From Azospirillum lipoferum 4B (GTDB lineage Bacteria > Pseudomonadota > Alphaproteobacteria > Azospirillales > Azospirillaceae): a DNA stretch of 64,000 bases. Made by a program: the position numbers and the translations under genes. Every line of letters starts with the position of its first letter. The first letter of the stretch is position 1. Location: assembly GCF_000283655.1 (NCBI RefSeq), contig NC_016585.1:129001-193000 (forward strand), read 5' to 3'. This document shows positions 11,189-34,689 of this stretch, in pieces. A model generated the notes under the pieces. The model saw only the letters and a program-made list of their open reading frames with translations, did not search any database and was not told where the DNA came from.

Positions 11189-11206
11189 TTGATTGAGTAC
11201 CAATAT

Positions 11207-11383: not shown

Positions 11384-11494
11384 TCACAACGCATGACGGT
11401 GTGGTTCATATTCCTGGCATGGAATCGATCTGGAGAGCTGTTACAGCTTATGATAGGAGTTGCGCAGAGCCGTTTCTAGACAAACGATGGCTGC

Positions 11495-13546
11495 ATGCTG
11501 CACTTCAAGGATTTCCTTCCCGCTGCCCCTCCCCCCGATGCCGCCGACCGCATGTTCATTCGGCATGACCAGGGCTTTGCCGCAGTGATCGATGGCGTTT
11601 CCGGATGCTCCTATCCGAAGCTGGCGGCGGACATGTGCGTCGAGGTGCTGGAGTCGCTCGGGTCGGAGACCCGCGACATCCCGCTCGAAGCGATCCTGGA
11701 CCGCATGCACGAACGCCTGCGGAGCTTCAGCACGGCCCGGCTCATGGCCGTCGCCGCCTTGGTCCGGGCGGTCGGTGACGGGTACGAGGTCGCCACGGTC
11801 GGCAACCTTGCGCTGGTCGACGCCTCCAACCCAAAGCGCGCCCGGCTCGCCATCGAAGCGACCACCCAGCCGCTCTCCGCCCTCGGCCAGGATGGCGCTC
11901 CGCGCATCGTTACATGTACCCTGCCGATGCCCAAGGACGGCTTCCATGTGCTGGCGACGGATGGCCTGCATCCGCAACGCCTTGCCCATGCGGTCGCGCA
12001 GCATGGGGAATCGGCGACCAACGCGGACTGGCGTGCGCTCGGCGAGCGGGTGTGCACGGATTCGGACTGGAGCTTCCTCGTCTTTCCTTTCGAGCGCCGT
12101 CTGCACTTCCAGCGCGACCACTGGCCCTACGACCCCTTCGTCGGGGTGCAGGAAGGTCACGACCATGAGCGGCGCGGTCTTGCGGAGTTGGCGGACGCGC
12201 TGTTCCGCTCGAACCGCTACCCGGGTTTCCGCATCCTCGGCAGCATGACCGTGGACCGCGCTCGCGCGTCGTATCTCGCCGACGGCGTGCTCGTCATCCC
12301 CGAAGGCCTCGTGCTCCTCGAACTGAAGGACCATTGGGGGCGGATCGAGATCCCGCTGGAATCGGGCGCCGGCATGCGGACGCACCGCCGCGAGCCGGAA
12401 TCCAATCCGGTGTACAAGCTCAAGAAGGCGCTGCGCCACATCAGCGGTTGGGTGCCGGACCTGCCGCTGGAGCCCTGGCAGCGCAAGATGGCCGCGGTGG
12501 TCTTCACCAACCCCGGGGCCCAGGTCTTCGGAGTCCGCGCCTCCGGGCAGATCGATGCCGCGCCGCTGATCTCCGGCGAGGTGATGGTGGCCGGCACCGC
12601 ACGCTTCCCGGCGCTTCTCGCCGACTTTCTCAAACCGTTCCGGACCCAGTCGAAAGGGGGCCGCGTCCGCCTTCTCTCGCCCGCGGAGATCGAAGAGGTG
12701 GCCGGGCGGCTGGCCGCCGGGCAGGAGGAGGAGGCCGAGGATCCGGAGGCGTGGCGCATCGGATCATACAGCTTCGACCGCAAGCCGGCCCAGGAGACGG
12801 GATACCACGCGCTGCACACCGGACGGTCGAACCGCGGCAAGCCCGTTCTGCTGAAGCATTACCGTCTCAAGAGCCTGATGCGCGGCGACCGGGACGCCGC
12901 GTTGGCCGCTCTCGGCCGCGAGGCGGAGATCCTCAGCGAACTGCCGCAAGATCCCCGCCTCGAGCGCCTGTTGGGGCACGGCGAGGATGGCGATGCCTAC
13001 TATGTCATCCTCGAGGCCGTGCAGTCCCCCGACCTCGACCAATGGCTGGCCGGCGACCCGCCGCGGGCCGAACGGCTCGCGATCCTGCGGGATCTGGCCG
13101 AGCTGCTTGCGCTCCTCGCGGGCGCCGACGTCGTCCACCGCGGCATCACGCCGAAGAGCTTGCGGGTACGCGACGGACGCCCCGTTCTGACCGGCTTCGA
13201 ACTGGCCCGGCTCGACAGCGTGGCGACGCTGCTGGTCGACGCCCGGCGGCTTTTCGACCAGCAGTATCAGGCGCGCGAGGTGTTCGTCGGGGGAGTCCTG
13301 GGACAGGCGACCGACAGCTACAGCCTGGGTGCGCTGGCCATCCGCATGCTGGCCGGCACGCTGCCGTTCCGCGATTTCCAGGAACTCGCCGTCCGCCGCG
13401 GCAAGCCGGGCTTCTGGGAGAAGGTCGCCGCCGGCATGGCGCTGCCGCCGTCCGCTGCGGCCGACCTCAAGCGGCTGCTGTCTCCCGACCCGATCCAACG
13501 GCCGACCGGCCGCGCCCTCGTCGATCTGGTCTCGGGCTGGAGTTGA
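11495..13546 (+). CDS. PP2C phosphatase-NERD nuclease-pseudokinase fusion
   Basis: A 683-residue protein with three parts. Residues 1-200 resemble a PP2C phosphatase: VIDGVSG (Asp33), VATVGNLALVD, LATDG (Asp156) and a late Asp191 keep the metal-binding pattern. Residues about 240-390 match a NERD nuclease-related domain: the Asp263 in LADGVLV and Glu276-x-Lys278 give the D...ExK pattern of an active site. Residues about 420-683 are kinase-like, with a Lys454 in VLLKHY. However, HRD has become HRG (548-550) and DFG is TGF, so this is probably a pseudokinase. NERD-kinase fusion recalls PglW of BREX type 2, but the PP2C part is extra. It heads a five-gene operon. The ATG at 11495 lacks a strong ribosome site. 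Confidence 0.75.
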   Translation: MLHFKDFLPAAPPPDAADRMFIRHDQGFAAVIDGVSGCSYPKLAADMCVEVLESLGSETRDIPLEAILDRMHERLRSFSTARLMAVAALVRAVGDGYEVATVGNLALVDASNPKRARLAIEATTQPLSALGQDGAPRIVTCTLPMPKDGFHVLATDGLHPQRLAHAVAQHGESATNADWRALGERVCTDSDWSFLVFPFERRLHFQRDHWPYDPFVGVQEGHDHERRGLAELADALFRSNRYPGFRILGSMTVDRARASYLADGVLVIPEGLVLLELKDHWGRIEIPLESGAGMRTHRREPESNPVYKLKKALRHISGWVPDLPLEPWQRKMAAVVFTNPGAQVFGVRASGQIDAAPLISGEVMVAGTARFPALLADFLKPFRTQSKGGRVRLLSPAEIEEVAGRLAAGQEEEAEDPEAWRIGSYSFDRKPAQETGYHALHTGRSNRGKPVLLKHYRLKSLMRGDRDAALAALGREAEILSELPQDPRLERLLGHGEDGDAYYVILEAVQSPDLDQWLAGDPPRAERLAILRDLAELLALLAGADVVHRGITPKSLRVRDGRPVLTGFELARLDSVATLLVDARRLFDQQYQAREVFVGGVLGQATDSYSLGALAIRMLAGTLPFRDFQELAVRRGKPGFWEKVAAGMALPPSAAADLKRLLSPDPIQRPTGRALVDLVSGWS

Positions 13547-13576
13547 GGCGATGGCGCGGGCACCCGGATACTCATC

Positions 13577-14386
13577 ATGCTGACGGTCAGTCTCGACCTT
13601 CGCCTCGACATCCTTGCCGAGATTTATCCCATGGCGGACACCGGCCGCGCGCTCTTCAAGGTGCGCAGCAGCCTGGACGGCCTCACCTATGCCTTGAAGC
13701 AGTTCAGCCTGGAGCGGAACAACGGAGGGGCGATCCGCCGGGAGATGGCGGCGCTCAACCGCCAGCTCAACCATCCGGAACGCTTTCCGCGATACCGCGC
13801 CTACTTCGAGAAGGACGGCTTCGGCTTTCTGCTGCTGGACTGGATGGATGGCACGCCGCTGTCCGGCGCGGTTTCCGCGGCACCGGTCCGCGGACCCGCC
13901 GAAGCCGCATCGCGCGTCGAGATCCTGCGGCACATCTGCGAGGCCTTGAGCTGGGTGCATCGCGTACGGCACCTTCATCGCGACTTGAAGCCTCAGAACA
14001 TCCTGCTGCGCGATCCGCGAGACCCCCGTAAAGGCGTGGCGCTGATCGACTTCGGCCTCGCCCTGGAGCGCCGCGGCGGTCTGGAGGGCACGCCCGGCTA
14101 CACCGCGCCCGAACAGACCGACCGGCCGGACTTCCCCCTCGACCAGCGGACCGACCTGTTCGCCGTCGGTGCCATCGCCTGGTGGCTTATGACGGGTCAG
14201 GAATTCCGCTATTTCGGCGACGGCGACGGGTGGTCAGGCGTCGGTCCCGGAACCTTGTGTGCGCTTGCTCCCGGCGTTACACCCGCGTTGGAGGCCGTCA
14301 TTCTGCGGGCGCTCGCCTATCGTCCGGATCGGAGGCCGCGTTCCGCGCAGGAGTTGAAGGCGCAGTTGGCCGGAGCCCGGTCATGA
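13577..14386 (+). CDS. Ser/Thr protein kinase (Hanks type)
   Basis: A 269-residue kinase domain with no transmembrane segment, so it is soluble. It keeps every key residue I can check: Lys41 in YALKQF, Glu56, His-Arg-Asp at 134-136 followed by LKPQN, Asp158-Phe-Gly, and GTPGYTAPEQ at 171-180. It starts 30 bases after the PP2C-NERD-pseudokinase gene, and its stop overlaps the helicase start by four bases (ATGA). Its likely partners are the neighbouring PP2C domain, which could remove the phosphates it adds, and the pseudokinase, which could regulate it. Substrates might be operon members or BREX proteins; that is inference. Confidence 0.88.
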   Translation: MLTVSLDLRLDILAEIYPMADTGRALFKVRSSLDGLTYALKQFSLERNNGGAIRREMAALNRQLNHPERFPRYRAYFEKDGFGFLLLDWMDGTPLSGAVSAAPVRGPAEAASRVEILRHICEALSWVHRVRHLHRDLKPQNILLRDPRDPRKGVALIDFGLALERRGGLEGTPGYTAPEQTDRPDFPLDQRTDLFAVGAIAWWLMTGQEFRYFGDGDGWSGVGPGTLCALAPGVTPALEAVILRALAYRPDRRPRSAQELKAQLAGARS

Positions 14387-17300
14387 CTGCCGACCGGCTG
14401 TCCTTCTGGCATCCCGCATCGCTGGTGACGCTTCCGGGCGCTCTCCCCATCCTGCTGCCGCGGAACGCCGCCGATTTCCGCGGGCGCTGGCCGGGCGCGA
14501 CCGTTCCCAGCCTCGACCAGCTTGCCGCGGAACTTGCGCAGGCGACGATGTGCTGCGTGCGCTGCCGGCCCGCTCGCGAGGGTGGCCGCACCTTCGTCGA
14601 CATCCTTACCGGACGCCTTCTCATTTCCGCCTGGGCGCCCGACGGGGAAGCACCGAAACTGATCCTCAGCAAGAACGGCGTGAAGCCGGCCCTGGGCGGT
14701 GACAAGTCCGGCATCCTGGCAGCGGGCGGGCGGGTACGGGTGCAGGGTGTCGAGCTGGTGAGCGGCACCGCTTTGCGCCAGCGGTTCGAGGAGCGTGCCG
14801 ACGCCTACCGGTCGGGCGACTATGTCCGCTGGATCCTCAATGCCCCTCCGGCCTCCGCCGGCGGCGGTACGGTTGACGAGGACGACGAAGGCGAAGGCGA
14901 GGCGGGGTCCGACGCCGAAATCGGGGAATCGGGAGTGGCGTGGGCGGCCGACCTTCTCCGCCAGGTGACGGATATTGCCCACGAGCTGGAGGATGAGGAA
15001 CTCAGGGCCGAGCCGCCCTTCCAGTATGTGGCGCGGCGGGCCGAAGCGCATCGTGGCAATGTCCAGCAACAGTTCCGCCTGACCCTGCCGGAAGCCGACC
15101 ACCGCCGGCTGATCGAGCGGAAGGCCGCCATGCTGGAACGCATGGACATGGCGAGCGGCGATACGCTGCAGATGCAGGTGCGGGATCTGGAGGCCGGAAC
15201 GGGCGAGATCATCGTCTCGGTGCCTCGCCAGATCGATGCGGCGGCGCTCCCTGCGACGGGGGAACTGCGCCTCGCCAATCCGCCGGTCCTCAGGCGGGTT
15301 CGGGAACAGGTCATCGACCGTCTGGCCACGGGGCAGGCGGCGAACCGCTGGCTCCTTCCCCTGTTGGGGGGAGAGCACCCGTTTCCTCCCTTCCACGCTC
15401 CCACGGTCGAACCGCCTCCCGGCGCGACGCCCATGCCGTCGCAGCAGGAGGCGATGAACCGGGCCGCCGGCAGCCCGGACGTCTTCCTCGTGCTCGGACC
15501 GCCGGGGACCGGCAAGACCACGGTCATTCTCACCTGGGTCAGGCATCTGGTGGCCGAGGGCAAGCGCATTCTCGTCACGTCGCAGAACAACAAGGCGGTC
15601 GACAATGTGCTGGAGCGCCTCGCGCGCGATCCCGCCACCACCTGCGTTCGCCTCGGTCAGGAACACAAGGTCTCGACCGCGGTCCAGCCCTTCCTGATCG
15701 ACAACTGCGCGGCGACCTTGCAGAAGCGGCTGCTGACCGATGTCGAGACGGTCCTCGCCGACCTCGATGCTGCGGCAGCCTGGGCCGAACAGGCGCCGGC
15801 CGCCATCGCGCGGCAGGACGCCGCGCTTGCGGAACTGGCGGCGGTGGAACGCAGGCAGGAAGACGCCCGTTCGGCGTTGTCCCGGATCGGCGCCGACCTT
15901 CGGCAGGCCAGGGAGACCGCGGCTGCGGCCGGCACCGAGTACGAAGAGCAGCGCAAGGCTCTGAACGACCTTCTGGTCCGGCAGCAGGAGGCCGCCTCCG
16001 CCAGCGGCTGGCGTGCGCCCTTCGCCCGCGTCGGCGGACTCTGGGCCACTATGAAGGAACCGTTCGCCACCAAGTCGCTTTCGGCTGCGGGAGAGCGCAA
16101 GCGCTTGGCCGACCAGGCCGTGGCCGCGGCGCAGTCGCGGCTGGGCAACCTGCAGGCCGATGTCGACGCGCTGGCCGGTCAGGCCGCGTCGGCGCGTGCC
16201 CGGTTCCGCTCGCAGCTGCCGCCCATCCCGGACTCGTCCTTGCCGCCCCGCTTTCGCCCTTGGGATACGCTGAACGTCGAGGCGCTGCGGTTCGGCGCGC
16301 GGGAGCGGCTGCTGGAGGATGCGCGACGCCTTGCCGATCTCCGTCTGCTGGTCGGGCGCTGGCGGAACGCCGTCGCCGAGAGCCGGCAGGAAACCCTCTA
16401 TCCCCAGCTCATCGCCGGCGTCGACGTGGTGGGGGCGACCTGCATCGGAATCCATACCAGCGCCGCCTTCCGTGACGTGCAGTTCGACGTTGTGATCGCC
16501 GACGAGTCGGGACAGATCCAGGTCCAGGATCTGATCGTGCCCCTGTCGCGCGCGCCGAAGGCGATTCTGGTGGGCGACCACAAGCAGCTGCCGCCCATCG
16601 TCAAGCCGGAATTCCGTGACGCCCTGACGGCCCGCTACGTCGAGGACGACGGGCTCATGAACGTAAGCTGGTTCGAGCATCTGTGGGGGCGCGTGCCGGA
16701 CGACCGCAAGGCGGTTCTGGACACCCAGTTCCGCTGTCCCGCCGTCATCAGCGACTTCATCTCGTCCAGCTTCTACGAGGGCCGCTATCATGCCGGTCCC
16801 GGCATGGCGGCGACACCGCTGTGCGGTGCCTTCACGTCGCCGCTGGTGCTGGTCGACACCAGCCTGCACCCGCGCCGCGGCGAAAGCTCCCGACGCGCCG
16901 GCGGCAGGACGGAGGTGCTCGGCAATCGTCTGGAAACGGAGCTGGCCGTCTCGCTGCTGGACCGGGTTCTAGCCGAAAGACCGGACGTCGCCATGGATGG
17001 CGAGGTCGGCATCATCGCGCCTTACAAGAGCCACGTCGAGGAGGTCCGCCGCGCGCTCGACCAGGCACGGGCCGTCGGAGGGCCGATCGCCGAACTGACC
17101 TTGCCGGCCCGCGACGTGGTGGCCAGCGTCGACAGCTTCCAGGGACAGGAGCGCAAGCTGATCATCGTGACGCTGACCAGGGCGAACTCCGCAGGCGTCA
17201 TCGGCTTCCTATCCGACTGGCGCCGTCTCAACGTGGCAATGACGCGGACCAGGCATCAGCTCGTGCTGATCGCCGACATGGCGACGATGACGAGGCGGCG

Positions 17301-17412
17301 GAAAGACCCCGTGGCGAAGGAGGAAGCCTTCCGCTCGGCAATGGAAGGCCTGCGCACGCACGCGCGCAGGCACGGACAGTTCATCGATGCCCGTACCCTG
17401 ACGGGCGAGTAG
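14383..17412 (+). CDS. SF1 helicase, Upf1/Dna2-like, with long N-terminal extension
   Basis: A 1,009-residue protein; the start is the ATG overlapping the kinase stop (ATGA). Residues 1-330 are an unrecognised extension with an acidic low-complexity stretch near 160-180. The SF1 helicase core follows: Walker A GPPGTGKTT at 372-380, QNNKAVDNVL, then a long Ala/Arg/Glu-rich coiled-coil insertion (about 440-640). After it come motif II DESGQ at 707, GDHKQLPPIV near 731, TQFRCP, DSFQGQE near 917 and RRLNVAMTRTRH near 947. These are Upf1/Dna2-type features, implying ATP-driven 5'-3' unwinding of DNA or RNA. No nuclease motif is obvious in this chain; the NERD domain encoded at 11495 could supply cleavage. 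Confidence 0.88.
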   Translation: MTADRLSFWHPASLVTLPGALPILLPRNAADFRGRWPGATVPSLDQLAAELAQATMCCVRCRPAREGGRTFVDILTGRLLISAWAPDGEAPKLILSKNGVKPALGGDKSGILAAGGRVRVQGVELVSGTALRQRFEERADAYRSGDYVRWILNAPPASAGGGTVDEDDEGEGEAGSDAEIGESGVAWAADLLRQVTDIAHELEDEELRAEPPFQYVARRAEAHRGNVQQQFRLTLPEADHRRLIERKAAMLERMDMASGDTLQMQVRDLEAGTGEIIVSVPRQIDAAALPATGELRLANPPVLRRVREQVIDRLATGQAANRWLLPLLGGEHPFPPFHAPTVEPPPGATPMPSQQEAMNRAAGSPDVFLVLGPPGTGKTTVILTWVRHLVAEGKRILVTSQNNKAVDNVLERLARDPATTCVRLGQEHKVSTAVQPFLIDNCAATLQKRLLTDVETVLADLDAAAAWAEQAPAAIARQDAALAELAAVERRQEDARSALSRIGADLRQARETAAAAGTEYEEQRKALNDLLVRQQEAASASGWRAPFARVGGLWATMKEPFATKSLSAAGERKRLADQAVAAAQSRLGNLQADVDALAGQAASARARFRSQLPPIPDSSLPPRFRPWDTLNVEALRFGARERLLEDARRLADLRLLVGRWRNAVAESRQETLYPQLIAGVDVVGATCIGIHTSAAFRDVQFDVVIADESGQIQVQDLIVPLSRAPKAILVGDHKQLPPIVKPEFRDALTARYVEDDGLMNVSWFEHLWGRVPDDRKAVLDTQFRCPAVISDFISSSFYEGRYHAGPGMAATPLCGAFTSPLVLVDTSLHPRRGESSRRAGGRTEVLGNRLETELAVSLLDRVLAERPDVAMDGEVGIIAPYKSHVEEVRRALDQARAVGGPIAELTLPARDVVASVDSFQGQERKLIIVTLTRANSAGVIGFLSDWRRLNVAMTRTRHQLVLIADMATMTRRRKDPVAKEEAFRSAMEGLRTHARRHGQFIDARTLTGE

Positions 17413-17419
17413 GTCACGC

Positions 17420-18679
17420 ATGCAGCCAAGGCGATTCATCCCCTTCGACCGCTTCGTCGTTCCCGCCGTCGCCGCCGGAGCCCGTCCGCTTCTGATCGGC
17501 CGGGTCCTGTACCCGGTGATCGAGGTCCAGGTCGTTCTCCGCGAGCGCTCGCGGGGGGACATGTCCGAGATCGAACTGGCGTTCCTCGCCGTCATCTCCG
17601 CCGGCATCGACCGGACGGAAGACCTCCACGCGCTGCTGGCGGTGCGGGAACGGTTCGCGGGTCAGCTCCTCGACCGGCTGGAAGGGCTAGGGCTCATCGA
17701 CGCTGCCGGCACGGAGCTGCGGACGACGGAACTCGGGGACCTGTCGCTGCGCGAAGGCGCGCTGGTCAAGGATGTCGAGCGGGCGCTGCTCGTCTGTGGA
17801 TTGACCGGACATCTGCTGCCGCGCGAGGTGTACGATCTTCCCCGGCTTGCGCCGGAGAAGGCCGCGTCGAACCTTTTCGGGCGGCGCTTCCTGGAACCGC
17901 GGGACGGAGTTCCGAACCGGATCCTGTCGTTGCGGCTGGACGCGATGCGGAACGAAGGCGGACGCGAAGCCCTGGCCCGCTTCGGCATTCCGGACGAGGC
18001 AGTCGCCATCAATTCGGTGGGCGACGGCATCGGCAGATTCGTCGAGGGCGGCCTCGTGCTGGCGGCGGACCCCGGAGGCGGCTGGATGGGGGAACTCCGC
18101 CTGGGCTCCGCCACCGCTCTCGCCCTGGATGGCATGCTCGACCTGCTGGTCCCGGAGATGGACATCGCGCTGGCTCAGAGCCACGACGCAAGGGATCGGC
18201 TGGCCCAAGCCCTTGCCGCGCATGGCGTCGCCCTGGAGGGCGCGCCGTTCGTTTCCGAGCGGCGCGGCATCGAGGCGCGGGTGACGGCTCTGGCGCCGCC
18301 GAAGCCGCTGACCCTTCAGGGCCGGTCCTGGCTTTCCCGCCTCGGCACGCCGGATCAGCCTGCGCTTCCCATCTGGGAGTTCCGGGCCACCGGACCGGAC
18401 GACCGCCGCCGTGACATGCTGGACGGGGCCTGCATGTATCTTTCGACGGACGAGCCTGCGCTGTGCCGCGATGCCCGCGCCCTGCGCATCGCCGGTGAGG
18501 CGGCCGATCGCTGGTATGCCACGCCGCGCGCCAAGCGTGCGGCGACTGTGGGGGCCGACATGTGCGATGCCCTCGAGGCCGCCGGGTACGAGCCCGGACG
18601 GGTTCGGGTTCTGGCTGAACGCCATGGGGACGGACAGGTTCTTCGGCATCTCGACGAGGTGGAGCTGGTCGAATCATGA
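17420..18679 (+). CDS. Unrecognised protein with possible winged-helix domain
   Basis: A 419-residue soluble protein that starts seven bases after the helicase stop and overlaps the next gene by four bases. I do not recognise the family. Residues about 45-115 look like a winged helix: a helical run beginning MSEIELAFLAVISAG, a second helix with ERFAGQLLDRLEGLGLI and a strand pair with TELRTTELG. The middle (about 120-330) has mixed alpha/beta character without visible catalytic residues, and the C-terminus ends in a helix-strand unit. It could be the DNA- or signal-recognition component of the operon. This is an inference from its predicted fold and tight coupling. Confidence 0.6.
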   Translation: MQPRRFIPFDRFVVPAVAAGARPLLIGRVLYPVIEVQVVLRERSRGDMSEIELAFLAVISAGIDRTEDLHALLAVRERFAGQLLDRLEGLGLIDAAGTELRTTELGDLSLREGALVKDVERALLVCGLTGHLLPREVYDLPRLAPEKAASNLFGRRFLEPRDGVPNRILSLRLDAMRNEGGREALARFGIPDEAVAINSVGDGIGRFVEGGLVLAADPGGGWMGELRLGSATALALDGMLDLLVPEMDIALAQSHDARDRLAQALAAHGVALEGAPFVSERRGIEARVTALAPPKPLTLQGRSWLSRLGTPDQPALPIWEFRATGPDDRRRDMLDGACMYLSTDEPALCRDARALRIAGEAADRWYATPRAKRAATVGADMCDALEAAGYEPGRVRVLAERHGDGQVLRHLDEVELVES

Positions 18680-19947
18680 GCATTGCCGATTCCCTGCCCG
18701 CGGATGCACGATTCCGTCTCGCCGCTTGGCTGCTCGTGCCCGTCCGGACCGGGCTTCTGGCTGGAGCCGCCGCGCCGCCGACCGGCTGGACCGGCCTCGC
18801 CGGCGGTGCAGCCGGCCCGACATGGGGCACTCCGGACGATCAGGCGCGCTTCTTCCTCGGCGGACTGCGCCGCAGGCTTGGTTTCGACCATGGGCGGCGC
18901 TGGAGAATGGAAGCGGTGCCGCCGACGGAGTTGCGCTGTGGGGCTAAGGCGGCGGCTCTGCGGGTCGTTGATCTGCTGGCGCTGGGCGAATGGGGTTTCC
19001 TGTTGCTCCGCGTCGAAGCTGCCGACCTGTTGACGGCCGACGAGGTGCTGCGCTTCAACCGCGCCCTGCCGGCCTGGATTCCGCGAACCGTATCCGAACA
19101 TCTTCCGGACTGGCACGTCGGCGACGGCGTGATGCCGCTGAGCGGTGTCGTGCGCCGGCTGCTGCCGATGGGCGTGGAACCGGCGGAGGAACTGGACTGG
19201 TTCGGCCATGACGTGCCCCTGATCCTGATGGTGACGCGGGACGCCGCGGACGGCGTCGAGCCCGACACCCTGACGGCGGCCCTGCTTGCCGGACTTCCGC
19301 CGGCACGTCCGGACTACACCCTTGCGGTGCCGGAACAGGAACGGCTGGTCGGGAACACCATGGCGGTCTGGCGGAACTGGCTGGTCGGCCAGCACGGCGC
19401 CCGCACGCTGTTCTATGCCGCAGGCGAAACGCCGCTGACGGTCAACATCGACCGCTACTACCATCTGCTGGTCGTGCTGACGGCGCATCAGCAAGTCCGA
19501 TTGTGGGATTTCATGGAGCGGCTTGCCGGCCTACCCGACGCCGGCATCGGCAGCGAGGGTCTCGACCTTCGCCGTGAGCTTGCCGAGTTCCGCCGGATCT
19601 ACATGCCGTCGAAGGCGTCCACCTATCCGATCGGGGATCGGCTATACCGCTTCTTCATGGATCGGGCGGCCGTGGACGAGCTGGCGTCGACAATCAACCG
19701 CGACATCGCCGAACGGGACAAGGTCGAGCAGCTCATGGGCCAGCGACGGGAATCGGCGATCCTGACGGCGCTGACGGCCATCGCGTCCCTCGCCGTGCCG
19801 GCCACCACCGTAGCGACGATCCTCCAGCTCGACCTGGATAAGCTCGGAAGTCCGCTCCATTTCTGGGGACCTGCTACGATTGCCACCGCGCTGGCAGTTG
19901 GTATCGTGGTCATATCGTGGCTTCGGTCAGGTGCTCCTAAACGATAG
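18676..19947 (+). CDS. Membrane protein with CorA-like C-terminal topology
   Basis: A 423-residue protein and the last gene of the five-gene operon; its ATG overlaps the previous stop (ATGA). Residues about 1-270 form a soluble domain, then a long charged helix (about 285-355) leads into two closely spaced hydrophobic segments, about 357-377 (LTALTAIASLAVPATTVA) and 390-412. This helix-plus-two-TM plan resembles CorA-type channels, but I do not see the GMN signature, so magnesium transport is unlikely. In a defence setting such a protein could be a membrane-damaging effector or a membrane anchor; this is speculative. The 3' end faces brxL across a 221-base gap. Confidence 0.6.
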   Translation: MSIADSLPADARFRLAAWLLVPVRTGLLAGAAAPPTGWTGLAGGAAGPTWGTPDDQARFFLGGLRRRLGFDHGRRWRMEAVPPTELRCGAKAAALRVVDLLALGEWGFLLLRVEAADLLTADEVLRFNRALPAWIPRTVSEHLPDWHVGDGVMPLSGVVRRLLPMGVEPAEELDWFGHDVPLILMVTRDAADGVEPDTLTAALLAGLPPARPDYTLAVPEQERLVGNTMAVWRNWLVGQHGARTLFYAAGETPLTVNIDRYYHLLVVLTAHQQVRLWDFMERLAGLPDAGIGSEGLDLRRELAEFRRIYMPSKASTYPIGDRLYRFFMDRAAVDELASTINRDIAERDKVEQLMGQRRESAILTALTAIASLAVPATTVATILQLDLDKLGSPLHFWGPATIATALAVGIVVISWLRSGAPKR

Positions 19948-20168: not shown

Positions 20169-22220
20169 TCAATCTTCTAGCGCCTTGAAGACCGCGTCCG
20201 CGGCGTCTTTATAAAATTCAATACTGATCCTGGTCCACAGCTCATCGGGAAGGTCGTTGAGCTGCTTGCGGGCGCTGACCGGCATCAGGAGCGTCTGTGC
20301 CTGACGGTCCACAGCCAATTCAGCGATGCGCACCGCGTTGGGAATGAGTTCGACCGACCCGCCGAGATTCAGCGAGCCGACCACGATCGTTCCTCCTCGG
20401 CTGTTCCGACCCAGCAGCGAACCGCAAAGCGCGACCAGAACGGGAAGGCCCAGACCGGCCCCAGTCTTATCGCTGTCCATAGCCCGCATCTGGATGGAGA
20501 ACTCCTCCTCACGCGGATTGCGATCGCCGACCATTTCGCGCGAGCGGGCGTAGAGATTCTGTTCGCCGACTTTGACGCTCTCCCGGAGTGCCGGCGGTGT
20601 CGGCTGATTCAGGATCTTCACGCCACTTCCAGGTCCGCAGGTCACCTCAAGCCGATACAGGCCCGGCGCCGTCTCCGCCGAGGCGCCCACCGCCCAGACC
20701 TGACCCGGGGGCAGGGGATCGCTCTCGATGGCTTCGTCGCTGTGGAGCTCGGGCGTCGAGACGAACTGCTCCACCCCATCGGCTCCCAGGGTATAGCTGA
20801 AGTGCGTGTTCCGGAACTCGCTCTTGAACACGCGCTTCTGCTGCTCCTTGACCCGCCGGCGGGCCTCCAGCGCCAGTCGGACGATCCACTCCAGATCTTC
20901 ATCCGGGATCGGCGTGTCCGGGTCCGGGAAGAGCAGCTTGGCAACACCGTTGAATGTCTTGCGCACCGCCTCGATGTCGCGGCCGCTTAGGGCGCCGCCG
21001 AAGTGGACGCGCTCGAGCGCCTGAGTCCGATTGACGCTGCGCAGCCGGCTCCAGCACTCGCTGATAAAGTCGCTAACAAGGCCGAAGTGGTCGGTCAGGT
21101 GCTCGGTCGGGCTGAGCTTCGGGAAGTCCCAACCGGGCACATAGGCGTGGAGGCGGTCCATGAAGGCGGTGTCGTTGCGCATTTCCGGCGGCAGCGGACC
21201 GAGCAGGTGTCCGATCTTCTGCTGCTGCTCCAGGTCGACATCCAGATTACCGACCATCACGATGGCCCCTTCGGCCCGGATGTTCTCCTTCCCCCGGCTG
21301 AACTGGCCGGAGGCCATGTAACCCTTCATGATGTTGACGCCGTCCTTCTGGTCGAAGGACACGCCGGCAACCTCGTCGAAGCAGACCACATCATAGCGGC
21401 ACACCAAGCCGCGCTCGCCCGACGAGTTGTTGACGAACATCTTGGCGACCGTGGCCTTGCCGCCGGAGATCAGGTGAGCGTAGGGCGAGATTTGTTGGAA
21501 CAGGTGGCTCTTGCCGGTACCACGTGGACCCAGCTCCACGAGGTTATAGTTCGATTCCACGAAGGGGGCCATGCGCAGCAGCATGACCTGCTTTGCCCGA
21601 TCCGTGAGGGAGGATGGCTCAAGGCCGACGGAGCGGATCAAAAAATCCAGCCATTCACGGGTGGAGAATTTGGCGCGGCCGCGGGCAAGTACCTCCAACG
21701 CATCGGATTTGGAGAGCTGAATCGGGCGCAGCGCCTCGATGCCGAAGGGCCTGCCGCCCTTCTCCTGCGCGATGATGGCATCATACGACAGAGTGACCTC
21801 GGCATAGAAGCCGTCGGTCAACATGCGTTCGTTCTCGCGCACGACGCTGTCATCGATGCGCACGTCACGCAGCGTCAGGCTGGGCAGTTCGGCGATATAG
21901 CAGTCGTTCTTCGTATCCAGGCGCGCTTTGACGATATCGATGATCTTGACCGAGCCGCGGTCGCGCGCCTGGGCCTTGAACAGCTCCTCCGTCCCGGTGC
22001 GGACCGTCCGGTCGCGGAGCTGCTTTTCAACGATCTCCAGACCTTCGGCGATCTCCTCCTCATCCACGCTGGCGCAGTAGCGGCCGAGAAGGAATTCGAC
22101 GACGTAGGTCGGCACCGGGTACTGCCGGGCGTACCGGCGGACCAAGTCCTTGCGCACGAGGAAGCCGTCGAAGGCAGCAGCGCCAAGCCGGTCCAGGCTG
22201 TCCATTTCCACGTTCATCAT
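20169..22220 (-). CDS. brxL: BrxL, Lon-related AAA+ protein of BREX
   Basis: A 683-residue protein, the usual length of the Lon-related BREX protein. The N-terminal part is helical. An AAA+ core follows, with Walker A GPRGTGKSH at 231-239 and Walker B VVCFDEVAG. A C-terminal Lon-protease-like domain (from about 545) includes IQMRAMDSDKTGAGLGLPV and VVGSLNLGGSVELI. At the place where Lon has the catalytic Pro-Ser-Ala-Gly, this protein reads Thr-Gly-Ala-Gly, so proteolysis is doubtful. BrxL is known as an AAA+ DNA-binding ring needed for phage defence in type 1 BREX. Its ATG overlaps the pglZ stop (ATGA), and it is the last gene of the operon. Confidence 0.93.
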   Translation of the reverse strand: MMNVEMDSLDRLGAAAFDGFLVRKDLVRRYARQYPVPTYVVEFLLGRYCASVDEEEIAEGLEIVEKQLRDRTVRTGTEELFKAQARDRGSVKIIDIVKARLDTKNDCYIAELPSLTLRDVRIDDSVVRENERMLTDGFYAEVTLSYDAIIAQEKGGRPFGIEALRPIQLSKSDALEVLARGRAKFSTREWLDFLIRSVGLEPSSLTDRAKQVMLLRMAPFVESNYNLVELGPRGTGKSHLFQQISPYAHLISGGKATVAKMFVNNSSGERGLVCRYDVVCFDEVAGVSFDQKDGVNIMKGYMASGQFSRGKENIRAEGAIVMVGNLDVDLEQQQKIGHLLGPLPPEMRNDTAFMDRLHAYVPGWDFPKLSPTEHLTDHFGLVSDFISECWSRLRSVNRTQALERVHFGGALSGRDIEAVRKTFNGVAKLLFPDPDTPIPDEDLEWIVRLALEARRRVKEQQKRVFKSEFRNTHFSYTLGADGVEQFVSTPELHSDEAIESDPLPPGQVWAVGASAETAPGLYRLEVTCGPGSGVKILNQPTPPALRESVKVGEQNLYARSREMVGDRNPREEEFSIQMRAMDSDKTGAGLGLPVLVALCGSLLGRNSRGGTIVVGSLNLGGSVELIPNAVRIAELAVDRQAQTLLMPVSARKQLNDLPDELWTRISIEFYKDAADAVFKALED

Positions 22221-24532
22221 TCGTCTCCGACGGTCGTCATCTGCGCCGCGATCACATTGCCATCCGTGTCGAGAACGACGACGAAGGCGGCCGTGCCCAT
22301 GTTGCTGTCGTCCTCGACCGCCAGACTGGCCTCACCGGTGTCTTTCAGCTCCTTGACGGAGGCGGCGATGCTGGTGCCCGGATTGTTTCGCTTCTGGCGA
22401 AGGTCCACGGCCAGTCCCGGCGTGGAGGTCTCGACCTTGATCCGGACACGCAGGCCACGCCAACCCACCTGCTTGATGGTGGCCGAGATGGGCGCCGCGC
22501 CACGGGAAACGGTCAATTCGGGAATGACGCACTCCTGCGGGCTGATGCCGCCGTGAGCGTATGCCGCATTGGCCAGATAGGATCCGACCCCCGGTGGCAT
22601 GGCGATGCGGACATGTGGGTCCCAGTACCAGGGGAAGGTCGCAGCCCCCGGCGAGGCGCCGTCCTTCACGGCGGCGCAGCGCGCCCATTTCGCCGAGGTC
22701 ACCGACTTGGGCAGGTCGACCTTCGGCAGCCCGTCCGGCATGAGCAGCCAGCCATGGTCGGTGACGATGCGCACGCGGGGCCAGCCGACCGAAAGAAGGC
22801 TGTCGATCAGCATGACCAAGTCGGACAACTCGTCTTCGATCTGGCGGACGAGCCCGATGTCGAGTTTGTGCCCCAACTCATCAAGCTTGCCGGTCTCACA
22901 CCATCCGACGTCGCCGGCTCTGGCCGGTCCCTGCGGGCTTGCCGGCGCGACGATGACGGCGCCCTTCTGCTCCAACGCTTGCCGCAGCTTCAGGACGCCT
23001 GCCGCCGCCGTCGTTCCGGACAGGTGGGGGCAGAAGTCCTCCGGTGCGCCGCCCGGCCCGATGATCGGCCCGACCGGCATGGCGACGGGTTTGGCCGTGG
23101 CAGTGACCGTCGGCAGCGGCGCGAAGCGATGCCCTGCGGTGCAGGGAAGTTGCAGCCCCTCCAACTGCTCCTTTAGCGCCATGGCGACGTCGTAGCGGAG
23201 TCCATCCACGAACAGGAAACAGGTCCCGGCTTCGGGCGTGAACGGATGGACCAGCGCGGACGCCGCTGTATCCGAGGCCCCCAGCAGGTCCTGGAGATGG
23301 CGGGCCGACTGATCCAGCCAGGGCAGATACAGGGCCCGGATGACCCGGCAGAGCAACCCGGCTTGCGGCTTGTGCGCCATCGCCTTGGTCAGAGCCTCCA
23401 GCGCCGCGCGATCGCAGCGCCACCCGTCGGCGGCATAGGCGTCCGCCATCGCGGCGGCATTGGCGCCGCCCAGGCCGGACCGCGCCATCTGGGCCAGTTT
23501 GGCCAGCGGCTGCAAGGCGTCCGCCAGGGGGCTCTCGCCCAGTTCAGCCCATGGGGAGTTGCGTCGGTCGGCGTGCTCCGCTTCCAGGGCGATGACCTTG
23601 TCGCAGGCGTCCTGATGCGGCAGGTCGACCGCGGCCTCCAGCCCGGCCCGCAGTTTTACCTCGCCGTCCTCATTGAAGCGGGGGTTGCGGTCGCTCCCGG
23701 CGAACAGGTCCTTGTAGGACATGCGCAGGACCTTGGAGAGGCCCGGATAGAGTTTGGGAGCGGCACAGAACCGCCGCCAAACGCCCGCCCAGGTCGGCGA
23801 CTGGTCATTCACCAGCTTGTCACCGGCTGCCGTCACGCCGTCCGCTTCCGGGTCGAAGCCGTAGGTCTTAAGCCAGAGCTGGCGGATGGACTGCCATTTC
23901 CCGTCGTCGCAACGCTGGCGGAAGGCCCCCGGCTCGCTCATCCAGCTCAGCAGGTCGCCGACCGGGTCATCCACGTCAAGCTTCAGCAGGTTCTCTGCAT
24001 CGATGCGGCGACCGAGGAGAGAAACCACGGGTTCGGTGGCCACACGGGGGAGCATCCGCAACAACGCCTTGCGGGTGGCCTGATCGCCGGCGAGGTCGAT
24101 CTCCAGAACCGCCTCCACGAACCCCTCGACCGTCCAGTCGCGGCCGTTCCGGTGGTGCCAGGTCTGGCCGCGGTAGCACAGCTCCACCAGCGGCTGATGG
24201 GCGGGCGGACAGTCCTCCGCCGAGCGCAGCACCGCGCGCGCCACCCCCGGCAGGTAGAGCACGGGGATGGCATCCGCCGGCAGGTCGAGATCGGGCAAGG
24301 CGCGGTCGACGACGCATTTCAGCCAGATCGCAGGCCCCGTCTTGTGTTCCGGGTCATAGGGTCCCAGCGCATACAGGTGCGGCACCAGCTTGCGCAGTGG
24401 CTCGACCAGGGGCCGCCACTGCCCGTCCGGATCGGTCCAGAGGATGGCGGCCGGCGGCGCGACGCCATCGGCTGTCTTCCCTGCATCGGCCAATCCGTGC
24501 TGGATCGCCTCCAGCAGGGTCTTGGGGCTCAT
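22217..24532 (-). CDS. pglZ: PglZ, BREX alkaline-phosphatase-fold protein
   Basis: A 771-residue protein. The C-terminal half carries the PglZ alkaline-phosphatase-like core: FLFVDGLRYDVAMAL near residue 440 (metal-binding Asp) and IVTDHGWLLMP near 590 (Asp-His pair). The N-terminal half is helical and probably scaffolding. PglZ is a core BREX component and behaves as a metal-dependent nuclease or phosphatase in tested systems; its substrate in vivo is unsettled. The length and pattern fit the longer (type B) PglZ class of BREX type 1, a guess from memory of the family. It overlaps both neighbours by four bases (ATGA), so translation is coupled. Confidence 0.93.
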   Translation of the reverse strand: MSPKTLLEAIQHGLADAGKTADGVAPPAAILWTDPDGQWRPLVEPLRKLVPHLYALGPYDPEHKTGPAIWLKCVVDRALPDLDLPADAIPVLYLPGVARAVLRSAEDCPPAHQPLVELCYRGQTWHHRNGRDWTVEGFVEAVLEIDLAGDQATRKALLRMLPRVATEPVVSLLGRRIDAENLLKLDVDDPVGDLLSWMSEPGAFRQRCDDGKWQSIRQLWLKTYGFDPEADGVTAAGDKLVNDQSPTWAGVWRRFCAAPKLYPGLSKVLRMSYKDLFAGSDRNPRFNEDGEVKLRAGLEAAVDLPHQDACDKVIALEAEHADRRNSPWAELGESPLADALQPLAKLAQMARSGLGGANAAAMADAYAADGWRCDRAALEALTKAMAHKPQAGLLCRVIRALYLPWLDQSARHLQDLLGASDTAASALVHPFTPEAGTCFLFVDGLRYDVAMALKEQLEGLQLPCTAGHRFAPLPTVTATAKPVAMPVGPIIGPGGAPEDFCPHLSGTTAAAGVLKLRQALEQKGAVIVAPASPQGPARAGDVGWCETGKLDELGHKLDIGLVRQIEDELSDLVMLIDSLLSVGWPRVRIVTDHGWLLMPDGLPKVDLPKSVTSAKWARCAAVKDGASPGAATFPWYWDPHVRIAMPPGVGSYLANAAYAHGGISPQECVIPELTVSRGAAPISATIKQVGWRGLRVRIKVETSTPGLAVDLRQKRNNPGTSIAASVKELKDTGEASLAVEDDSNMGTAAFVVVLDTDGNVIAAQMTTVGDE

Positions 24533-26271
24533 ACCGCTTGCCCGGCTTCGCGGGCGTCGGAGCGCTTCTCAGGGGTGTCCTGCGCCTCATTGACCAGATT
24601 TGGAAAAGCACGCCACGGATTTTCTTCGGGATCCTTGTATGTATCCTTGAGCCTGCTGAATTCGGTCAGAAGGAAAGATTCTGCACCCTTCTCAAGATGA
24701 TCAACCGCGTGAAGAAATTTGCGATGATCAAGTTGCGATAGATCTCTTGAGCAGACGTTATCGATAACCCACTTTCCAAGCAGCATGCCAGCCGCTTTGA
24801 AGAAGGTATCTCTCCTTCTTTTGTTTTCACGGAGCAGCCGGTCCTCTGTATGTCTTTCTGGAAACGACTCCTTGATATAAAGTCGCTCGACCTGCTGCCG
24901 GATCAGGCAGGCAAGAATTGCCTGCGCCCCGTTGAGCGATCCGGTGAACACATTGTCATAGTGCTCGCGGAAGAGAGCGGACTCATTCGGTACGTCAATA
25001 ATTTTCCTGCGCCACACTGCGTAGACGGAGCGGGCCACATCGAGGCTGGTGAACTCCTTAGGAGCAATTGGTCGGTCAAGCCGCTTGCGGCGGTACCGAT
25101 AGCCGAGTTCCTCAATCGATTTTTCAAGAAGAATCTGCACTTCGTCATTCGCTCTCAGATCGGAGAGAGTTACCGGGTTCTGATTGTTGGTCGCCCAGGT
25201 GATGCGCTCGACCAGTTCCTTGTTTTCCGGCAGTTCGTAGATGCGGGTCAGCACGCACGCACCGGGCGCGGGCGTCTCGTCGCCCAGAACGCGGCCAATG
25301 ATGAGACTGGTCTGTCCGCCATTCACAATCTGGATATTGTCAGCCTGCAGAATTGGGCTCTCATGTGCCCCCTGATGATAATCGACGCGATCGCAAGTAA
25401 TGGTCAATCCGTTATTGTAGAAATAAAAGTTCCCGCAATCGTCGTTCGTTTGGAGGGATTTCTCAATTTCGGAGTTGACCGAGTCCTTTTCCGCGCCGAG
25501 AAAATACCGGACGTTCCGTCCGACAAGCCGAATGTCGTATTCTTTAACCAACCGCGCAATCTCTTGTACAGCAACCTTTCCGATGATTACCCTGTGTCCG
25601 CCGATTTCCTCTTCCAGGTACTTCCCCTGCAGCTTTATCGTGTCATTCACGGGTTCGGTCGGATGCCAAAGGCGGTGCATCTCCGTGGGGCCAAAATGGA
25701 TCCATTTGGACGGGAGCTTTTTCCTGCGGACGGCGTCCTTGATCCGCGTCTCGACGGCATCGACCCAAGTGCGCCCGTTGCTCGCCATCAGCACCGTGAC
25801 ATCGGGAATGCGGCCTTCCCGCAGCAGCTTGCGGAAATGGTCCACCTGCCGGGTCAGCCGTGAGTTGCCGGCGAACTCCGCGTCGGGGTCCAGCAAGGTC
25901 TCCAGCGCCGATATCATTTCCGTAACGGCGCCCTGTTCATAATTGCAGGCACCGTCCAGCCGATCGTGAAGCTTGCTCTGGATGAAGGTCAGCTTGAATC
26001 GCGTGCCGGTCACTGACGACACGACGATCGCATCGACGCCATAATCGTCTTTGCCGTCCACCACCGCGTCGAGCGCATCCGCATCGTCAAGGCCGCAATA
26101 GAGCTTCAGGGTGAGCACGGTCAGGGCTGCCGAACGCAGGCGCCTTTCATCAACATCCAAGTATCGGCCGGTGTCCGTCGGCGTGATGCCGATGATGCCC
26201 GCCAGCCGGTCACGCAACGCCTCGACGGTCTCGCCGACCCTCTGGTCGACCAGTTCAACTGCGGCTTTCAT
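24529..26271 (-). CDS. AIPR-family protein inserted in the BREX operon
   Basis: A 580-residue AIPR-family (abortive infection phage resistance) protein. Diagnostic stretches are FYFYNNGLTITCD and IQIVNGGQTSLIIG, followed by ATNNQNPV. Near the N-terminus, Asp80 in DDYGVDAIVV and Gln98-x-Lys100 in FIQSK form a D...QxK pattern like PD-(D/E)XK nucleases. It overlaps pglX and pglZ by four bases on each side, so it is a built-in operon member. Long stretches (about 24,600-25,700) have noticeably lower GC than pglZ and brxC, suggesting later acquisition. It may be an abortive-infection effector that fires if BREX fails; that is inference. Confidence 0.85.
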   Translation of the reverse strand: MKAAVELVDQRVGETVEALRDRLAGIIGITPTDTGRYLDVDERRLRSAALTVLTLKLYCGLDDADALDAVVDGKDDYGVDAIVVSSVTGTRFKLTFIQSKLHDRLDGACNYEQGAVTEMISALETLLDPDAEFAGNSRLTRQVDHFRKLLREGRIPDVTVLMASNGRTWVDAVETRIKDAVRRKKLPSKWIHFGPTEMHRLWHPTEPVNDTIKLQGKYLEEEIGGHRVIIGKVAVQEIARLVKEYDIRLVGRNVRYFLGAEKDSVNSEIEKSLQTNDDCGNFYFYNNGLTITCDRVDYHQGAHESPILQADNIQIVNGGQTSLIIGRVLGDETPAPGACVLTRIYELPENKELVERITWATNNQNPVTLSDLRANDEVQILLEKSIEELGYRYRRKRLDRPIAPKEFTSLDVARSVYAVWRRKIIDVPNESALFREHYDNVFTGSLNGAQAILACLIRQQVERLYIKESFPERHTEDRLLRENKRRRDTFFKAAGMLLGKWVIDNVCSRDLSQLDHRKFLHAVDHLEKGAESFLLTEFSRLKDTYKDPEENPWRAFPNLVNEAQDTPEKRSDAREAGQAV

Positions 26272-29200
26272 GCTTCGCCCCCCTTCCGTTCCCGCGCCGC
26301 GCGCTTGGCGTCGTTGCTGTAATGAAGATCGTTCCAGCGCTGGCCGTCGGGCTCGTCACCCGTGCCGGCGAAATTCGCCGTCTTCTGATCCCAGTTCCAG
26401 AACCAGGGATAGTCGTCCTTCGGGCGCGTCGGCTCCTTCCCGCGGTCCTTGTCCCACTTGATGCGCGGGGTGACGCGCAGGATGCAGGCGGTGGCGGACT
26501 TGGCGTCCAGGGGGCGGGCGGTCAGGAAGGGGCGGATGTTCATGCGCACCCCGTCATTGACGTCCGGCTCCCAGCCGATGGCCTGACGGCGCAGCGGCTT
26601 CCAGCGGACGAAGATGTCGTAGGGCGGCTCCCCCTCCAGGATGGCCTCAAGCCGGCCGCGCAGATGCTCCGCCGCGGCCAGCCGGCCCTCCGCTCCATCG
26701 GCACCCGCCTTCACCTCCGTCCGGCAGCGGTCGATCCATTCCCGCAGGTAGGTATAGACCAGCTTCTCCAGCGTCCGCCGGCCCTCGCCGCCGGGGGCCG
26801 CCAGCTTGTGATAGTTCACCAGGGCGTGGAAGCCGTCATCCTGCCGCCCGTCCCAGACATGCCAGATGAAGGGCCGGTTCTGGAACAGCTCCACATGCCG
26901 CTTGAAGAAATGGTTGCGCAGATAGGCGTCGAGGTCGCGCGCCTTGCCGTCGCCGGCGGCGGACAGCAGGGCGGTCAGGCGCTGCGGCGTCCAGTCGGCG
27001 CCATAGGCGGAGGCCAGCAGGGCGGACAGGCGCTCCGCCGCCGCCGGTTCCCCCTTGACCGGGGACAGGCAGACGATGCCGTCGCTGTCGGCATGGGGCT
27101 CCAGCCCGTCCGGCTCGGTGATGGCCGGGCAGTCCATGAAGCTGCTGCCGGTCTGGCGCGGCCAGCGATAGCCCAGCAGCCGGGCCACCGCCACCTGCAA
27201 CGGATCGTCCGAGCCGACGGGATGGCCGTTGAACAGCCACTGGGTCGGGTCGTCGGAATGCGGCTTCGGCAGGCCGTCCGGGTATTTCTCCGCCGCGACC
27301 CTCTGCCAGTGGGCGAGGTCGAAGGGGATCAATTCGAAAGTGCCATTGTTCACCTTACTGCCTGGCTCAATTTTTCTGACTCGCTTAGTAAGTTCACCAG
27401 AATGAGCAAAGCAAAGCAGTGCAGATACGTGCTCCCTGTTGTTCGGAATGAGAACGCAAACATTACTGTCAAAAATTTCACCGCCATAGATGGTTGCGGG
27501 TAGCAGCCGCATTTGGCCGATAGAAACACCAATATTTCCCCAGGCTTTCGTTCCTTGCCGCCGTGCTACGCTTGATCCTCCATCAGCCCACCAGATAACG
27601 TTGGACTGTCCGCCATAGTTCTTTTGCTCCTGAGATGTCGACTGCATTGGATGCCAGTTTTCCGTCAACGCTGGGGTTTCCCAGAAACTGCGCACCAGTC
27701 GGTCGTCATCGCCAGTCTTTAATCCCTGAGATGCTCTGGCGAAATGGCCAATAATATTTCCTTTGTGCCCGCCCTGAAGGTCGAGGCGCGAATCCTTGCC
27801 GACCAACGCAGTCGAGGATGGAAGCACCGTGAACCCGCCACCTTCTTGTCCGGAGAGTATTGCCTCTTTCACTGAGATGCTCTTATTCTCTCCGGCATCA
27901 ATGAGATTGATGTGCGATGTTACAATGTTGCTCCTACGAGACATAGCGAACAGCCCTGTTCGCGCTGCCCACCAATTCATATCTTGGAACGCAGCCGGAC
28001 CAAGTAGGGCGCAGATATCTAATCCGTTCTTGATCAGGGATGTTTTCCTCAGATCACGATAGGCTGGTAAAAAAAGCCAATTATCCGGCGCAACGGTACT
28101 AAAAGTCCCATTTGGGACAATTATCTCCAACAGCCGCTCCATGAAGACGGTAGCAATGTCGTTTTTTGATCTCGGATAGTGCTCATCTATCCAGTTTCGC
28201 AACGAGTCTGACTGTTTTCCACGTCCCAAATACGGTACGTTTGTCGCCACCAGCACATACCGATTCGCTAGCAACTCCGCCGCCTTGGCAAGGCCTTGTG
28301 CGGCGACGGCCATTTCTGCTACCTCGTCGCTGCCGTCGGCCAGCGCTTGCGTCAGGATCGGTTCCAGCAGGTCCCAGTCGGCGGCGAACAGGTCGCCGCC
28401 GGCCCGACGCGGTTCGATCAGGCTACCCAGCACCGGCGCTTTCTCGAACAGGTCATACAGGCGGGACAGGCCGGTGCGGATGCGGCTGTCCACCTGCGCG
28501 TTCAGCAGCGTCGCCTCCGCGCCCAGCAGGTCGGTCCTGGCCTGCGGGTCGGCGGCGCGGGCCACCTTGTCCGCCAGCTTCAGGAAATCCTGCTTCGCCA
28601 TGCCGATGGAAAGGCCGGAGCAGGCGAGATGCAAGGGCGGCAATTGCACGTACTCGCCGATCAGGCGCCAGGCGGCGAAGGCCAGATTGAAGGCGGCAAT
28701 CTGGGTGCAGCGAAAATCGATCTCCAGCCCGTGCAGATTGTCCCGCAGCACCGCCAGCACGGCGTCCTTCCGGTTCAGCCCCTCCTCCGCCATGCGCAGC
28801 GCCGCCAGGATGGGCAGGGTGAAGACCAGGAAATGGCCGGACCCCATGCAGGGATCGAGGAAGGTGATGTCCTTCACATCCCCGGGCCAGCCGGGGAAGG
28901 TGCCGGCCGCCGGGCGCCAGTCGCCCTCGCCGCCATCCTCCCGCGTTTCCCGGACGAAGCGCAGATAGGTCCAGTCCACCCCCGGCAGGGCGCAGGCCGC
29001 GCGCAGCTCCGCCTCGTCCGCCGCCCCGGCGGCGAGCGCCGGGTTCGCCGACAGGATCTTGCCGGCCCACCACGCCCCCAGCGTGTTGTGCAGCAGGAAC
29101 AGGACCATGTAGTCCTCGGTGAAGAGCTGGGTGACGGCCGGCAGCTCGTCCGCCCCGATCGGCCCGCCCGACTTGTTGACCCTCTCCTTCTCGTCGGCCT

Positions 29201-29756: not shown

Positions 29757-29801
29757 CGGACAGGCTCCCTTTCAGACGTTCTTGTGCTCGCATGCTTTTC
29801 G

Positions 29802-33248: not shown

Positions 33249-33808
33249 GACTGTGCTCCCCCTCCGTGCATCGTGATCGGCACGGCCAAGTAGTTCCACC
33301 CATCCCGCGCATCGAGCAGGCGGTACGTGTTGTCCTCATACTGCCCCGGGAAGAAGACCAGCAACCGGCCGCGAATGTCCGGCTCAACCAGGGTCAACAC
33401 GCGCGAAAGGCGCGTAAAGCCGAAGAGTGAGCCGGCGCCGATGACCGCAACGACCGTGTCCTCATCAACGGCCGGGTCGGTCAGCGCCAATCGAATGCGA
33501 TCGGCAACGAAGCCGGCGAACTCCGCATCCAGCTTCAGTTGCAGGTCTTCCGGCATCTCGAAGTACGCGTCGCGGTATTCTTCGCCCGCCATCCAGGCAG
33601 CAAAGCTGTCCGTGATGTCGACCGTTCGCCACGTCTTGCCGGCTTCAGCCGTGGCGATCTCGAAGTTCTTGAGGCGCGCCCTCAGGGCGCGCTCAGCTTC
33701 CTTCTCATAGACGAGCATGACGATGCGCTGCGCTCCCGCGACGGTACGCTGCCACGGCAATTTGATGTGGCGTTCGTAAACCTTTGCAAGATCTTCGATT
33801 CTCGCCAT
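33245..33808 (-). CDS. brxB: BrxB (DUF1788) BREX protein
   Basis: A 187-residue protein matching the DUF1788/BrxB family by size, position and sequence. It has an N-terminal helix, a P-loop-like strand pattern without a Walker A (QRIVMLVYEKEAERALRAR), and the late signature VVAVIGAGSLFGF followed by GRLLVFFPGQYEDNTYRLLD. BrxB is required for BREX in tested hosts; its biochemical role is unclear. It starts one base after the brxA stop and overlaps brxC by four bases. Confidence 0.92.
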   Translation of the reverse strand: MARIEDLAKVYERHIKLPWQRTVAGAQRIVMLVYEKEAERALRARLKNFEIATAEAGKTWRTVDITDSFAAWMAGEEYRDAYFEMPEDLQLKLDAEFAGFVADRIRLALTDPAVDEDTVVAVIGAGSLFGFTRLSRVLTLVEPDIRGRLLVFFPGQYEDNTYRLLDARDGWNYLAVPITMHGGGAQS

Positions 33809-33809
33809 G

Positions 33810-34607: not shown

Positions 34608-34667
34608 TGGGGTATCCGCGATCGTGTGATACCACCATGATGTCATCGATGAGAAAGCGCAACAGGG

Positions 34668-34689
34668 AAGCCGGCAAGTTTGCCGGCTT
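34668..34689. promoter_or_regulatory. Perfect inverted repeat upstream of brxA
   Basis: The arms AAGCCGGCAA (34668-34677) and TTGCCGGCTT (34680-34689) are exact reverse complements with two bases between. It could be an operator for BREX control or a terminator shielding the operon; the short spacer favours an operator. Confidence 0.45.

Follow-up and report, generated by a model that had tools for sequence, protein, structure and literature searches.

The window analyzed here, a stretch of 64,000 nucleotides from Azospirillum lipoferum 4B (NC_016585.1, positions 129,001 to 193,000), contains an operon of five genes, A to E, between positions 11495 and 19947. Gene A (11495..13546) encodes a putative effector-adaptor with a weakly PP2C-like N-terminus, a NERD nuclease-like domain and a pseudokinase; gene B (13577..14386), a serine/threonine protein kinase with intact motifs (ALK, HRDLKPQN and DFG); gene C (14383..17412), a superfamily 1 (SF1) Upf1/IGHMBP2-like helicase that resembles the helicase half of MkoA; gene D (17420..18679), a winged-helix protein with an MkoB-like N-terminus and no phospholipase D (PLD) domain; and gene E (18676..19947), a CorA-like membrane protein with two hydrophobic segments near its end and no GMN motif. 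All five open reading frames (ORFs) lie on the + strand, and neighbors either overlap by 4 bases or are separated by no more than 30. The ORF coordinates thus confirm the five real, co-directional and closely packed genes of the initial annotation, and profile matches and motifs support the NERD, pseudokinase, kinase, helicase, winged-helix and CorA-like parts that it assigned to them. We propose, with a probability of about 0.66, that these genes form an anti-phage system akin to Mokosh type I, in which A, B and C correspond to a split MkoA, D is MkoB-like without PLD, and E is CorA-like.

Mokosh is known to pair kinase and helicase domains with a nuclease, and an SF1 helicase, an active kinase and a winged-helix MkoB partner are common to Mokosh I (PDLC03920-PDLC03923) and the operon. 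Among the PADLOC profiles, C matched MkoA (PDLC03920) at 9.9e-96, B matched the MkoA model at 2.6e-22 (other kinase models score higher for B), and D matched MkoB at 9.2e-8 over residues 28-144, its N-terminal part only. From its sequence, we read B as an active kinase. When profiles were compared with hhalign, D matched enterobacterial MkoB with 79% probability (1.5e-5) within the winged-helix region. The AlphaFold model of D (mean predicted local distance difference test score, pLDDT, 74.1) places a MarR-like winged helix at residues 45-114, and Foldseek returned mostly winged-helix regulators for this protein, none at E <= 0.001.

The likeness extends to domain order. Long-form enterobacterial MkoA carries NERD at 53-141, kinase at 577-655 and helicase at 1066-1610, and is followed by MkoB; by eye, a kinase-like stretch that has lost DFG lies between its NERD and kinase domains. 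The resulting order, NERD, pseudokinase, kinase, helicase, MkoB, is that of A, B, C and D. In a review (PMC10952713), NERD and PLD both appear among Mokosh I domains. The initial annotation had known of no named system with such a composition. That view is not supported: each half of MkoA has a match, in B and in C, D resembles MkoB, and Mokosh I includes NERD among its listed domains. It had also considered that the whole set might already be a named system; four of the five genes map to Mokosh I, but the complete five-gene set does not.

There are differences as well. MkoA is one piece, whereas its counterpart here is split over three genes (A, B and C), and the kinase and helicase, which are fused in MkoA, are separate ORFs (B and C) both in the window and in a relative described below, from Betaproteobacteria bacterium UKL13-2. 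A PLD-like nuclease is present in the MkoB of the five short-form systems that we read and absent from D, although long-form MkoB likewise lacks a Pfam PLD domain. Mokosh I has no counterpart of the additional PP2C-like domain or of the CorA-like gene. We did not file the operon as Mokosh I because it has no fused MkoA and D has no PLD, the latter criterion being one of the short forms. Judged by these comparisons, the operon is Mokosh-related, with what appears to be an MkoA split in three.

Gene A is the most composite of the five. Its best match was the MADS kinase MAD6 (NF047741; 9.3e-32 over residues 223-673, covering the NERD and kinase parts), at 110.3 bits against an NCBIfam cut-off of 460, and the PADLOC PglW model matched it in part (1.6e-13). 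The NERD core (about residues 242-339; 12218..12511, + strand, limits set by eye) contains the motif ELKDHWG, and D263, E276 and K278 are shared with the UKL13-2 homologue and align with the same residues of enterobacterial MkoA; the NERD motif residues are present in A, here in a separate gene, but the Pfam match is below cut-off. In the kinase-like domain (about residues 434-675; 12794..13519, + strand, limits again by eye), the two motifs conventionally named HRD and DFG have become HRG and GFE. The PP2C label that had been given to the N-terminus is weak: two motifs align and a SpoIIE match is sub-threshold in A, but the motifs are lost in UKL13-2, so the PP2C-like start is not a general part of the system. 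The PP2C profile covered 17 of 27 listed places (18 were extracted, one of which was dropped for stops in the frame read; nine were not extracted). A PDB sequence search with the N-terminus returned nothing meaningful, and the AlphaFold model of A (pLDDT 36.6) is too poor for use. We read A as a probable effector-adaptor, with NERD as its effector.

Gene E matched the PADLOC CorA model (PDLC01043) at 3.8e-7 over residues 255-387, a low similarity, and a PDB sequence search with E returned nothing meaningful. GMN, the CorA motif, is absent from E and present in its Azospirillum relative. That relative, the one plasmid record found for E by protein search, lies at 11350-18209 of L001, an Azospirillum argentinense plasmid; there, the CorA-like gene is followed by genes for an SMC-like ATPase and a VPA1262 protein with a PLD domain, and an abortive-infection gene lies nearby, in what looks like a defense operon. 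We read E as a possible second effector, acting at the membrane.

A genome collection, searched with a DNA pattern that represents two helicase motifs, yielded at least 120 loci. A profile from 12 members of the helicase clade defined below scored 27 of the 120 listed loci at 461 bits or more and the other 93 at 338 or less; rows inside this profile necessarily score high. A quick tree was built from 38 helicases, and eight of the 27 (L026, L031, L066, L075, L094, L108, L116 and L118) are absent from it. In this tree, the window, UKL13-2, a proteobacterial metagenome-assembled genome (MAG) and 17 others form a clade of 20, with a Shimodaira-Hasegawa-like approximate likelihood ratio (SH-aLRT) support of 99. 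UKL13-2 carries genes A to D collinear with those of the window, without E (identity to the window 41% for C, 33% for A and 32% for D); in the MAG (L106/L144), a cyclase-FHA gene stands before B, C and D. No other instance of the exact five-gene set was found. Conserved co-occurrence of all five genes, which the initial annotation had said would support a system, was not seen: A-B-C-D was found in one other genome, and E in none of the 120 listed helicase loci (each at most 8 kb) nor beside A-D of UKL13-2.

What is conserved is the pairing of helicase and D. D follows the helicase in all 24 close-helicase loci whose downstream side was read and in none of the 93 lower-scoring listed loci. It was seen directly in 23 of the 27; the helicases of L026, L031, L075 and L106 end less than 90 bases from the end of the slice, and extension of L106 revealed D there. 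Upstream DNA was readable for 23 of the 27 (all except L047, L094, L116 and L118), and in 21 of these a kinase-domain gene directly precedes the helicase. Many of the scored rows are contained in the kinase and helicase profiles and so necessarily score high; neither profile includes L026 or L031, and in L031 the kinase gene matched at 2.3e-73 and its LmuA-type domain at 2.7e-31. Clade-like helicases without an upstream kinase gene occur in L168 (Ktedonobacteria) and L075 (Actinokineospora); as L168 does have D, helicase and D by themselves may form the core. A further branch may be present on a Deinococcus plasmid (L004, 3719-9611), where genes for an ATP-binding protein and a D-like protein (2.4e-9) accompany a helicase whose N-terminal part looks kinase-like by eye.

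The domain attached to the upstream kinase, by contrast, changes from locus to locus. Fused to the kinase or before it we found SEFIR (L035, L062, L069), TIR (L066), Trypsin_2 (L015, L023, L117), an LmuA-type nuclease (L026, L031, L067, L074), PNP_UDP_1 (L108), DUF4145 (L064; a similar domain in L132 by a PADLOC model only) and NERD (L038), while a separate CHAT gene (L043) or cyclase-FHA gene (L106) precedes the kinase in two others and no domain was assigned beside it in four (L014, L020, L056, L121). The HRD aspartate is lost in 18 of 19 aligned effector-linked kinases, the window included (L164 keeps it), and the ATP-binding lysine is arginine in 12 of 19. All four B-type and all five short MkoA kinases, in contrast, retain the lysine together with the aspartates of HRD and DFG. 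L106 has a kinase of the active type, and in L038 and L056 the pseudokinase is accompanied by an active kinase. In a kinase tree of 28 rows (without L026 and L031), 15 effector-linked pseudokinases fall into a single supported group (99/98), whose assigned N-terminal domains are of six kinds. Because TIR, SEFIR, protease and nuclease domains are exchanged beside one helicase-D pair, as happens in other immune families, we infer a role in defense. The exchange suggests a modular candidate family of phage defenses with a shared sensor core and a swapped killing domain. In the open-licence literature, we recognized no description of a helicase-pseudokinase-MkoB family with exchangeable domains.

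The arrangement of NERD, inactive kinase and active kinase in a single protein is described for PglW of BREX type 2 and some DndF proteins in a 2026 paper (PMC12839542), which bears out the PglW likeness seen initially. The three modules and their order are the same in the operon, but here they are divided between two proteins and stand beside an SF1 helicase and D, whereas PglW and DndF have other partners. The operon most likely operates like Mokosh and like this NERD-pseudokinase-kinase module of PglW and DndF. In such a scheme, C and D would sense abnormal nucleic acid made during infection, B would phosphorylate partners and set the trigger, and the PP2C-like part of A, if active, could reset it. 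The pseudokinase of A would dock the effector domain to the C-D sensor, a role suggested by its constant place before C while the N-terminal domain changes in relatives. Activation would lead the NERD domain to cleave nucleic acid, and a second lethal effect may come from E, through disturbance of the inner membrane.

Several observations weigh against relating the operon to Mokosh in this way. Pfam NERD scored below cut-off both in A (0.11) and in the UKL13-2 homologue (0.0023). Profile comparison of A with the N-terminus of long MkoA gave a probability of only 8%, so domain shuffling could account for the shared order; the score of A with MAD6 is higher. The clade of 20 helicases stands apart from the short and long MkoA rows, beside five Bacteroidota/Campylobacterota helicases, four of which were checked and none of the four has D in its locus; the MkoA rows themselves are not one group in this tree. 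The pseudokinases of the window and UKL13-2 form a branch separate from the other effector-linked genes; in the kinase tree, effector-linked pseudokinases need two label changes, and a single clade is neither demonstrated nor rejected (approximately unbiased test, p-AU 0.395). L039 and L075 have no kinase gene before the helicase (2 of 23). Finally, the UKL13-2 copy lacks the PP2C motifs and E, so that neither is general, and no defense gene was recognized by eye in the 25 kb read around it.

We give about even odds to a reading in which the relatives are a separate modular immune family, sister to Mokosh. C and D would be its constant sensor and the pseudokinase a socket for a plugged-in killing domain (TIR/SEFIR, trypsin, CHAT, LmuA nuclease, nucleoside phosphorylase or NERD), and the Azospirillum operon would have two arms, a nuclease and a CorA-like membrane effector, both controlled by a kinase and perhaps by a phosphatase. 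There is a reasonable chance that the clade merits a separate name. If the sensor is shared and the killing domain swapped, the signal that such a helicase sensor detects could be approached through very different readouts (NAD loss, proteolysis, DNA cutting and membrane leakage), and the effector-linked pseudokinase gains a testable role as an adaptor.

The extent of the system is a separate matter. It is possible, though on balance doubtful, that only A-D constitute it and that E is either a passenger unrelated to them or an ion channel of the ordinary type; the absence of E from UKL13-2 and from the listed loci fits this view, whereas its 4-base overlap with D, its best match to a CorA-like model of a defense library, its lack of GMN and the defense-like Azospirillum operon of its plasmid relative speak against it. 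It is unlikely that the operon is simply a split version of Mokosh type I that shares one ancestor with the fused MkoA-MkoB and adds nothing functionally new. The MkoA and MkoB profile matches and the long-form domain order would all follow from that, but the helicase clade lies apart, PLD is missing from D, and none of the five short MkoA proteins read showed a pseudokinase-effector fusion, the long form carrying NERD only. A regulator of stress or RNA processing is improbable: C does group with the five helicases just mentioned, none of the four checked having D beside it, and kinase and phosphatase-like parts would suit regulation, but neither the exchange of TIR, SEFIR, protease and nuclease domains nor the place beside BREX and a relaxase would be expected. 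Least probable is a PglW-like accessory of the neighboring BREX operon, which the three-part arrangement described in PMC12839542, the PglW match and a distance of only 221 bases favor, and which we rejected as the principal explanation because the two operons are convergent rather than co-directional, no BREX gene was seen by eye within the 25 kb around the UKL13-2 copy, and BREX type 2 has PglW as one protein together with BrxHI and BrxD, neither of which matched among the ten neighbor proteins scanned.

Other named systems were compared as well. The NERD-kinase region of MAD6 resembles A, but with the score of A far below the cut-off and no other MADS gene recognized besides a weak likeness of C to mad8 (4e-6, PADLOC profiles), we rejected an identity with MADS. 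The TerY-P triad consists of a vWA TerY protein, a PP2C and a kinase; it was rejected on finding no vWA match in the five operon proteins. E resembles, at low similarity, the CorA-like accessory PDLC01043, which is linked to CRISPR type III, and D has a weak CARF-like match (0.068), but no cas locus was recognized among the PADLOC-scanned proteins; no array search was made. Conflict systems centered on vWA-MoxR or a GTPase likewise combine a constant core with exchanged trypsin, restriction endonuclease, helicase and inactive kinase domains, as described in PMC7159879; their core is vWA-MoxR or the GTPase, whereas here it is an SF1 helicase and D.

Sampling with helicase profiles gave loose hints of rarity, generally with two candidates scored per genome: one of 369 genomes in the class of UKL13-2 and one of 398 in its phylum (in both cases itself), one of 396 in the phylum of L067 (itself), and none of 385 in an alphaproteobacterial class sample that had no positive control. 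Profile P0004 matched neither of two genomes, again without a control. Short exact peptides of A found no close relative in viral contigs and matched at none of 73 stretches in the genome collection; those of C, D and E, as well as a DNA pattern and a second profile scan, found no relative in viral contigs. Six phage records matched A, over the kinase part only. Protein search of plasmids returned no record for A or D and 257 for C, all below 60% identity, 14 of which were examined. Plasmids of Leisingera, Polaromonas and Acinetobacter (L153, L154, L155) carry a cassette of an SF1 helicase, a PIN-domain protein, a hypothetical protein, an AAA ATPase and a 4Fe-4S protein.

The surroundings agree with the defense setting proposed at the outset. 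Directly before A, about 300 bases (11189-11494) hold no listed + strand gene and fall in a 2-kb bin of lower G+C content (0.60); no sigma-70-like forward site was found in them. A TrwC relaxase and a ParA-like gene lie on this flank. On the other, 221 bases beyond E and outside the unit, begins the convergent BREX operon (20169..34742, - strand), with BrxL, PglZ, an AIPR/AbiU-like protein, PglX, BrxC, BrxB and BrxA. The AIPR/AbiU-like gene (24529-26271, - strand) sits between PglZ and PglX and matches Pfam AIPR at 4e-37 and PADLOC AbiU at 3.8e-39. Elsewhere, a BREX operon on a Nostoc plasmid (L158, 5891-12639) contains an SF1 helicase, a DarT-like ADP-ribosyltransferase and an ADP-ribosylglycohydrolase gene.

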